Below are positions 4,722-7,562 of a stretch of DNA of 64,000 nucleotides, piece by piece. Position 1 is the first letter of the stretch; each line of letters opens with the position of its first letter. The translations under genes and the position numbers were made by a program. The notes beneath the pieces are model-generated. The model was not told the DNA's origin. It made no database searches and worked only from the letters and a program-made list of their open reading frames with translations. The stretch comes from Synechococcus sp. PCC 7335 (GTDB lineage Bacteria > Cyanobacteriota > Cyanobacteriia > Phormidesmidales > Phormidesmidaceae): positions 2,903,720 to 2,967,719 of the forward strand of contig NZ_DS989904.1 in NCBI RefSeq assembly GCF_000155595.1, written 5' to 3'.

Positions 4722-4869
4722 TAGAAGGTAAGCATCTTTACTTACTCGAATAGGGGTAGAGATATTAAGTAATTGTCTATAGCGATCTTAATAGGTCTAT
4801 CAATATCCAAGCTCAATCCTGCCTATTCTGTACGCTCCCTTTCCATTTTTCTTCTCCAGTTTTTTATCT

Positions 4870-5529
4870 ATGGCTACCCTGTACGAAGTCCATCCGGTTA
4901 CACCCGATCCTAGAACAATCAATGCATTGCGAGATGATCTTCGTCAGGGAGCAATTATGCTCTATCCCACGGATACGGTCTATGCTATCGGCTGCGACCT
5001 AAGTTCAAAGTCCGCGATTAAAAGAGTACGACAACTTAAACAGCTTTCCAACGACAAGCCATTGACTTTTCTGTGTGCCTCTCTATCGAACGTAGCTAGC
5101 TACGCCCACGTTACCGACCCTGCGTATAAAATTATGAAGCGTTTGATTCCAGGGCCTTACACTTTTCTTTTACCCGCGACCAAAGCAGTACCAAAGCTAG
5201 TGATCAATCCCAAAAGACGAACGACAGGTATTCGAGTACCCAACAGCCCACTGTGCCTATCACTGATAGAAGCGTTAGGCAATCCAATTATCTCAACTTC
5301 TGCTGCCTCTATTGTGAGTCGGTCGACAGAAGATGATATCGATACTCTGTCGAAGGTGATGCTGTTTGATCAGATAGAGAAGTTAGTTGATGTTGTCGTA
5401 GATAGTAATACTGAGCTTGGTCATCAGGTGTCTACTATTGTCGATGTAACAGATGGATCTCCGCTGGTGATACGTAGGGGACAAGGTTGGCAAGAAGCTA
5501 TCGAATGGGGAGCAGAACTAGCAGACTAA
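4870..5529 (+). CDS. Sua5/YciO/YrdC family L-threonylcarbamoyladenylate synthase
   Basis: Family members make threonylcarbamoyl-AMP from threonine, bicarbonate and ATP for t6A at position 37 of ANN-decoding tRNAs. YciO-branch members may have a different or weaker activity. The 219-residue protein has the YrdC core: YPTDTVYAIGCD (about 34-45), KRVRQLKQLSNDKPLTFL, IPGPYTFLLPA, and GIRVPNSPL. There is no C-terminal Sua5 domain. The overall form (residues about 85-145) looks closer to YciO, so t6A synthesis should be considered probable rather than certain. It is divergent from larC, with a 148-bp shared upstream region. Confidence 0.85.
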   Translation: MATLYEVHPVTPDPRTINALRDDLRQGAIMLYPTDTVYAIGCDLSSKSAIKRVRQLKQLSNDKPLTFLCASLSNVASYAHVTDPAYKIMKRLIPGPYTFLLPATKAVPKLVINPKRRTTGIRVPNSPLCLSLIEALGNPIISTSAASIVSRSTEDDIDTLSKVMLFDQIEKLVDVVVDSNTELGHQVSTIVDVTDGSPLVIRRGQGWQEAIEWGAELAD

Positions 5530-5554
5530 CCTTGCTTATTACTATGACAATCGA

Positions 5555-5576
5555 TGTATGGACACTGTATGGACAC
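5555..5576. repeat. Perfect tandem duplication, period 11
   Basis: TGTATGGACAC is repeated twice without a gap in the convergent spacer between the YrdC gene and the broken response regulator. Confidence 0.75.
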
Positions 5577-5679
5577 CAGGTTGCCATAGCTCGATTTTGC
5601 AGACTAATCGCAGTCAGCACTCCTAACCTAATAATGAGTAATGAGGCCTAATAAAGGTAGAAAGTATCGTTAGAAAGAC

Positions 5680-6387
5680 TCACCCGTTTTCTGCCGTTTC
5701 AGGGGGCTCAAACTTATAGCCAACCCCACGCACCGTTTGAATGAGTGTCGGTTGGGTCGTATCGATCTCAATTTTCTTTCTGATTTGACCGATATGCACA
5801 TCGACTACTCTTTGGTCACCTACATACTCGTAGTCCCATACCTTCTGAATCAGTTCCGCCCGACGCCATACCCGGCCCGGATGTCCAGCTAGAAAATGTA
5901 GTAGGTCAAACTCTAGCGCAGTCAACGGTACTAAGTCATTCGCTAGGGTGACTTCACGACGGATTGGATCAATCGAGAGCTTGTTGAAGGTTAGGCGCTG
6001 CTGCTCAGCGATCGTCACAGGGCGTTGCCGTTTCAAAATGGCACCTAGCCTAACTTCCAACTCGCCCAGACTAAACGGCTAAGTGATATAGTCATCGGCG
6101 CCGGTGTGGAATCCGCGAATTTTGTCCGCCTCATCAGTGCGGCTTGTCAACATCAGCACGAACACGCCCGTTCGAGACTGCATTTCCTTACATAGGTCAT
6201 ATCCATTAGCATCAGGCAAGTTGACATCAAGAATCACCAAGTCAGGGTTGAATTGCTCGAAAATCGCGAGCGCAGTTTTCCCATCCTCAGCCGATTCCAT
6301 CTGATAATCTTGTTTGGCTAAGAAGCGATGAATCAGGTTGCGAATAGCGGGTTCATCATCGACCACGAGGATTTTGGCATCGGCCAT
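5680..6387 (-). pseudogene. OmpR-family response regulator interrupted by an in-frame TAG
   Basis: A receiver plus winged-helix regulator of 235 codons is read in one frame, except for a TAG at 6081-6079. The receiver (codons 1-115) has the acidic pair DDE (10-12), phospho-acceptor Asp54 and Thr81. The stop replaces codon 103, the invariant lysine that follows GADDYIT and precedes PFSLGE. The frame then continues without damage through a full trans_reg_C DNA-binding domain (LTALEFDLLHFLAGHPGRVWRR, then VVDVHIGQIRKKI and VRGVGYKF). One base (AAG to TAG, plus-strand 6081) explains it. Either the gene is a fresh pseudogene, or the base is an assembly error, or the stop is suppressed. A TTG at 6060 could start the DNA-binding half alone. 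The partner kinase is not adjacent. Confidence 0.8.
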
Positions 6388-6917
6388 AATTTAGAATCCT
6401 GGTACTAAAGCAAATCAAAAGCAGACAAAACGGAATCTAGTAAACACCAGGTTCACTCAAGTTTAAAGTTTGAATAACCCAGTGCTTATCGCAGAAGAAT
6501 CAATCAGTTTATGTGCCTTACATCCTAAGTTTGTGAAGCTTCAGCGTGATTTTTTTATAGCGCATCCACACCTTAGCAAGAAATTCATCATTTGCTCATG
6601 GGATTTTCGCGGAAAATTTACCTTAGCTTCATATATGATCTTTTCTATACCCAGTTTGAAAGCAGTCTTCAATACACTTAACAACTTTTATAGAAGTGAT
6701 GACGCAATCGGAACTTTAGCTGCTATTCGTTTCAGCCTGTCTCCCGCTACACTGTTAATTATGTATATTTTAAGTAAGAATATTTTCTTGACAAAAGGAG
6801 TCTTTTCAGTAAGTTTCTAGCGATAAGGTCGGATGAACGAAGTCTATCGCATGATTTACCGTTAGGTTTTCGCCATTATACTTTATATAGATTACTAGGC
6901 CGATTCGGAGGTTGGGC
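6388..6917. other. AT-rich divergent spacer, 530 bp
   Basis: This noncoding stretch separates the minus-strand response regulator from the plus-strand CPP1-like gene, so it should hold both promoters. A 116-codon frame at 6470-6820 starts with TTG, has unlike composition and resembles nothing, and I do not call it. I see no RNA gene or long repeat. Confidence 0.55.
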
Positions 6918-7562
6918 ATGAGCGAACAAAACGTTCACTATGAAACGTTAGGACTGACGGAAGCATCCTCATTTGAGGAGGTTCAGTCTGCTCGCGCACA
7001 GTTAGTAACCGCGTGTAAGGATGATCCTAAAAGGCAACAGGAAGTCGAGGCAGCCTACGACGCAATTTTAATGGAGAAGTTGAGGTTACGTCGAGAGGGC
7101 AAGATTAAAGTACCTGATAGAATTCGGTTCCCCGAAGATCAAACTCGTTCTAAACCGTCCCTTCCTACTTTTGGAGGAAATAGCGAAAGGCTTAGACCAC
7201 AGTGGTTTTCAGACTTGCTAGACCAGCCTGAAAGTAGTGGGGAACTGCTTTGGCCGTCGGTTATCTTTGCTAGCCTAGTGGGTTTAGCTTGGTTTTTGCA
7301 GTCGGATGAGGCTGTGGGTGCTTCTGTGGCTTTGGCACTGGGTCTGATGGCAGCGGTTTATTTTTTGAATCAGAAGACCCGAAAGCTTTGGCGCTCGGTG
7401 GGACTCTCTACTCTGAGCCTGATTGTTGGGCTATGCTTAGGGCTTCTAGTCGCACAGATCTTAAGGGGTCAAGGAACGATGTTGCCAGCTAGCCAAGTTT
7501 CCTCTCTTTCTACGAGTATTACGCTAGCGGTGCTGTGGTTTGTTACGGGTTTCCTGAGATAG
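6918..7562 (+). CDS. CPP1-like (DUF3353) J-like membrane protein
   Basis: Members are related to plant CPP1, a chloroplast J-like protein that stabilises protochlorophyllide oxidoreductase. The cyanobacterial role is not established. The 214-residue protein has an N-terminal helical J-like region (YETLGLTEASSFEEVQSAR, about 8-60) without an HPD motif, so it should not stimulate Hsp70. Next is a linker with PDRIRFPEDQT. At least three hydrophobic helices follow (about 108-125, 130-150, 155-180), with a further one at the C-terminus ending VTGFLR. The ATG at 6918 is preferred to a TTG two codons upstream because GGAGG lies a few bases before it. Confidence 0.85.
   Translation: MSEQNVHYETLGLTEASSFEEVQSARAQLVTACKDDPKRQQEVEAAYDAILMEKLRLRREGKIKVPDRIRFPEDQTRSKPSLPTFGGNSERLRPQWFSDLLDQPESSGELLWPSVIFASLVGLAWFLQSDEAVGASVALALGLMAAVYFLNQKTRKLWRSVGLSTLSLIVGLCLGLLVAQILRGQGTMLPASQVSSLSTSITLAVLWFVTGFLR

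Follow-up and report, generated by a model that had tools for sequence, protein, structure and literature searches.

The interrupted frame and its neighbors

On the minus strand of the window (the whole 64,000-nucleotide stretch of Synechococcus sp. PCC 7335 DNA that was analyzed), positions 5680 to 6387 hold a frame of 235 codons plus a stop, interrupted by a single internal stop. This is the TAG at 6081–6079 (minus strand), codon 103, which falls within the motif GADDYIT-*-PF at the position of the receiver lysine. A preliminary description of the region had placed an amber codon at codon 103 of a 235-codon gene, and the reading is borne out once the minus strand, from 6387 to 5680, is specified; the coordinates stood, but no strand had been given, and frame 1 of the plus strand over the same interval contains many stops. 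When the frame was translated with an X at the stop, Pfam matched Response_reg (PF00072) to residues 6–112 at 100.3 bits (cut-off 30.2) and Trans_reg_C (PF00486) to residues 153–226 at 96.1 bits (cut-off 26.2). With a receiver and a winged-helix domain both above their cut-offs, and from frame reading and comparison with orthologs, the gene is by its domain content that of an OmpR/PhoB-type response regulator, in which TAG stands in place of the receiver lysine.

Normal termination at this codon would be expected to give an N-terminal piece of 102 amino acids (6082–6387, minus strand), consisting of the receiver without the lysine and everything beyond it. Past the stop, an open frame of 126 amino acids begins at a TTG (5680–6060, minus strand) and would contain the winged-helix domain if, hypothetically, translation restarted there. 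The roughly 33 bases preceding the ATG (6388–6420, minus strand) are visibly conserved in five of the seven relatives aligned, as read by eye from the alignment, and the leader region of the gene seems intact. The regulator lies between two intact plus-strand genes, one for an L-threonylcarbamoyladenylate synthase (Sua5/YciO/YrdC; 4870–5529) and, on the promoter side, one for a CPP1-like (CHAPERONE-LIKE PROTEIN OF POR1-like) protein (6918–7562). An intergenic stretch of 150 bp (5530–5679), present in a single copy in the genome, separates the regulator from the synthase gene; the corresponding place in the sister genome L039 holds about 1.95 kb, including a gene for a HetZ-related protein.

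The regulator resembles RpaB and RpaA, cyanobacterial OmpR/PhoB-type regulators, in having a receiver and a Trans_reg_C domain. RpaB (NF045944) was also the top NCBIfam model, but its score of 226.2 bits is so far under the equivalog cut-off of 330 that we rejected identity with RpaB and counted the regulator as belonging to an unnamed group; none of the 25 NCBIfam matches listed was an equivalog at its own cut-off. Among proteins of solved structure, RegX3 and MtrA are the closest by sequence, with RpaA also among the relatives, and in the RegX3 alignment the X of the regulator lies opposite the lysine of GADDYVTKP.

Conservation of the gene and age of the stop

That a lysine is to be expected at codon 103 was confirmed by comparison with 80 named orthologous loci, the best 80 of 132 relatives found: all 80 have lysine at the aligned codon (55 AAG, 25 AAA), and none of the 80 matched stretches contains a stop. 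A single base change, as had been supposed, is sufficient to account for the stop. In a set of 58 genomes, which overlaps with the named loci, the regulator was matched at E ≤ 1e-60 in 50, PCC 7335 included, and only the PCC 7335 match has a stop; in two (G010 and G023) the match covers part of the protein only, and some of the eight genomes lacking a match at this threshold are incomplete assemblies. At E ≤ 1e-70, 48 of 146 genomes drawn from the phylum matched. No recurrent stop was seen in the 80 named loci, in 49 other matching relatives or in 47 other phylum matches, these sets overlapping. Two paralogs of about 62% identity had each been flagged for one TAA; in neither is the TAA internal, and the frame runs uninterrupted past the lysine and across the entire aligned region. 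In a frame conserved to this extent, a single TAG is not chance sequence.

Of the named relatives found, Cf. Phormidesmis sp. LEGE 11477 (L039) is the closest, with 98% identity in the regulator protein. Between the two genes pS was 0.588 and pN 0.013, giving a dN/dS of 0.011, and the ratio was similarly low on each side of the stop (0.008 for the N-terminal part, 0.006 for the C-terminal part). Three neighboring genes all evolve faster (YciO 0.067, CPP1-like 0.045, HppD-like 0.087). Within codons 1–233 the stop is the only residue absent from the 80 orthologs, in keeping with the earlier statement that the gene is undamaged apart from codon 103. These values point to very strong purifying selection on the regulator in its relatives. 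If half of the branch is assumed to belong to the PCC 7335 lineage, about 310 nonsynonymous changes would be expected on it under neutrality (Jukes–Cantor dS 1.15), and 3, 5 or 6 observed changes set the upper limit of unconstrained time at 2.5, 3.4 or 3.8% of that half-branch. The stop would thus have arisen within the last 2.5–4% of the lineage since the split, a neutral bound that is rough because pS is high and the half-branch is assumed, and one that is compatible just as well with an assembly error or with a gene that still works. The alternatives first offered for the stop, recent origin or assembly error, both draw support from the missing secondary damage and from this bound.

Among receiver positions 10, 11, 54, 82 and 103, which we take to form the phosphorylation site, codon 103 is the only one that a single base change can turn into a stop. 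The whole gene offers 76 such single-base changes, in 66 codons, one of them at codon 103; 29 of these, in 24 codons, affect positions that do not vary among the 80 orthologs. A stop at the lysine is therefore a coincidence of about 1 in 76, reckoned after the fact, and no special cause is needed.

Genetic code, release factor and suppressor tRNAs

TAG is in normal use as a stop in this genome. In 860 kb around the window, 360 frames of at least 300 codons end in TAG (155), TAA (126) or TGA (79), and release factor RF1 is intact, its model TIGR00019 being matched at 514.9 bits (cut-off 423.25). Reassignment of the code is rejected on both grounds, in agreement with the preliminary description. 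That description had also raised suppression of the stop and proposed a search for a suppressor tRNA with a CUA anticodon. None was present among the 36 tRNA genes found when 150 of 251 first-look candidates were scored, a list that appears incomplete, as Ser-UGA is missing from it and it has two CAU tRNAs instead of the usual three. A pattern search for CUA tRNAs, to which 31 of the 36 tRNAs of the genome itself would respond if given a CUA anticodon, returned 19 places, compared with 23 in a backward control, and no CUA tRNA was among the 19; ARAGORN identified two of them as Leu tRNAs and found no tRNA in the others. Neither mark of recoding, a CUA tRNA or a depletion of TAG among terminators, was thus found, allowing for the incomplete tRNA list. 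We conclude that a suppressor tRNA-CUA is unlikely, and with RF1 present and TAG undepleted we rejected amber suppression.

The missing HetZ-related gene

A feature of the locus that had escaped the preliminary description is the absence of a gene that adjoins the regulator in four of six congeners (L039, L041, L042 and L044). In these it lies 3' of the regulator and before tsaC/yciO; in L039, where it spans 4859–6316, and in L041, the two genomes in which frames were read, it stands tail to tail with the regulator. The other two congeners, L040 and L043, showed no HetZ-related match within the 4.0 and 2.0 kb, respectively, of their downstream flanks. The best model for the gene is NF037964 (HetZ-related protein), matched slightly under its equivalog cut-off of 612 (578.5 bits in L039, 563.8 bits in L113). 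All six congeners have the gene somewhere in their genomes at 680 bits or more. The best match in the PCC 7335 genome is another HetZ-like gene of 44% identity, followed by a partial match of 35%, and we infer that the HetZ-related gene has probably been lost from this genome. Nor did the window hold a credible remnant (best E 0.97).

Of the 80 named loci, 35 have a HetZ-related match on the 3' side of the regulator, a total that includes the L046 fragment and a short L045 match; six of the other 45 have less than 1.5 kb of downstream flank. In the 58 genomes, 43 have both genes, seven the regulator only (PCC 7335 included), two the HetZ-related gene only and six neither, counts that were tallied by hand, with HetZ-related proteins told from other HetZ proteins by a hand-drawn score line. 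The co-occurrence gives a Fisher p of 0.0009 if ancestry is ignored, and 0.0003 on the same basis if fragments are counted as present (45/5/2/6).

Two observations concern the place of the missing gene. In Vasconcelosia minhoensis LEGE 07310 (L046, 4732–5214), the only HetZ-related frame listed is C-terminal, of 160 amino acids, and lies beside an intact regulator. In the gap of the window where the gene would stand, an 11-bp sequence, TGTATGGACAC, occurs twice in tandem at 5555–5576. The idea that the 150-bp gap is the scar of a repeated mobile element was rejected: the gap is single copy in the genome, and the tandem repeat is all that it holds of this kind.

Origin of the stop

The reading that best fits these results, to which we give a probability of roughly 0.58, is that the TAG is a very recent null allele. 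In an OmpR/PhoB-type regulator with no close second copy, one base change would have turned the receiver lysine codon into an amber stop, at which RF1 would terminate translation after 102 residues. The truncated product would lack the lysine, the remaining receiver and the whole DNA-binding domain, and therefore a null allele is expected. The allele would have appeared not long before the strain was sequenced, either in nature or, as a guess, in culture, and recoding would not be required. Relief by a paralog was considered and rejected, as the second-best receiver in the genome is 44% identical over the N-terminal piece. The gene would on this evidence count as a nonsense pseudogene, in that an in-frame stop removes a conserved domain and the orthologs are uninterrupted. 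It resembles other nonsense pseudogenes and strain-specific null alleles in having one in-frame stop in a conserved gene with uninterrupted orthologs; it differs from a typical one in that the stop lies at a residue of the phosphorylation site and in that there is no secondary decay, from which we judge the stop to be very young.

The next most likely source of the stop, though a clearly less probable one, is a consensus error in the assembly, in which case the living strain would have an intact gene. A single deviant base, in a gene that evolves more slowly than the three neighbors compared with it and that shows no other damage, is what such an error would leave, and the only assembly of the strain used is a draft of 11 contigs (5,973,558 bases). 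Against this, 103 of 104 Response_reg matches in the genome are free of stops, the regulator at 5680–6387 being the exception, as are all 109 ABC_tran matches obtained by scoring 150 of 215 candidates, so that errors are not widespread in the assembly; open frames were also seen in the three neighboring genes compared. That the gene still works is improbable. It might do so by low-level read-through, or by restart at the TTG to give a free DNA-binding half, possibly one that binds DNA without control by phosphorylation, and the frame past the stop is indeed open for 132 codons and has a dN/dS against the sister as low as that of the N-terminal part. The recency of the stop, however, accounts fully for this selection signal. 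Read-through is without support, because TAG is a common terminator, RF1 is intact and no CUA tRNA was found, though in an incomplete tRNA list. At codon 110 the TTG encodes leucine, and 11 of the 80 orthologs have the same codon there, the sister having TTA, so it bears no sign of having evolved as a start. Neither suppression nor a split working protein has positive support.

Slightly more doubtful still is that a linked regulatory module is eroding, the unicellular strain having lost the HetZ-related gene, selection on the regulator having relaxed and the stop having followed. The stop and the loss would then be two steps of one event, a newly unicellular strain caught midway through dismantling a gene pair of the filamentous lifestyle, the relatives being called filamentous by their genus names alone. 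The presence of the HetZ-related gene in every congener, its position 3' of the regulator in many loci and its co-occurrence with the regulator are consistent with such a link, and a passage of PMC6104048 calls PCC 7335 unicellular. The regulator is intact, however, beside the HetZ-related fragment of L046 and in four genomes (G038, G041, G045 and G047) in which the HetZ-related gene was not matched, and the tail-to-tail arrangement means that the genes do not form one operon. The regulator was, moreover, strongly selected until very recently, which argues against an early release unless the HetZ-related deletion is recent too, and makes erosion possible, not likely. The link between the stop and the loss is weakly supported.

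A real stop would leave the sequenced strain without a response regulator that is kept almost unchanged in its sister species, and physiological results from PCC 7335, a strain that figures in papers on far-red light and nitrogen, would describe a regulator mutant. Loss of the HetZ-related gene offers a testable lead to the role of the unnamed regulator. The regulator gene is not named in the titles and opening lines of abstracts of the CC-licensed literature on PCC 7335 (response regulators, resequencing, hetR and morphology), nor in the passages available from PMC2821919, PMC4734447 and PMC6104048, and PMC3271361 does not mention 7335. In the CC-licensed literature nothing was found on the HetZ-related protein, on substitutions of the receiver lysine or on secondary loss of multicellularity in PCC 7335.

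Other interrupted genes in the genome

Interruptions are rare in the genome, yet that of the regulator is not alone. A scan for split genes in a single block of 860 kb (14% of the genome) found 10 of 956 in-line frame pairs to be coding-like on both sides of one stop; by eye, eight of the 10 looked like neighboring genes, one was the regulator and one was a TGA flanked by AAA_35 and WD40 parts. This TGA, at about 12193 of L207 (G000:C1:3172193), lies within a single line of frame, with an AAA_35 part on one side and a WD40-repeat part on the other, and none of the Pfam hits listed extends across it; the two frames may be one split gene or two genes. One of the 25 Trans_reg_C matches in the genome contains a stop and is a relic, with an in-frame TAA, at about 3192–3392 of L155 (G000:C1:3925191–3925391). 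At 2916–4938 of L156 (G000:C2, 31–40 kb), the frames of a histidine kinase and of an OmpR-type regulator both appear broken, and transposase-like frames lie a few kilobases from this pair; these labels were given by eye, and the receiver and DNA-binding pieces come from the Response_reg and Trans_reg_C matches.
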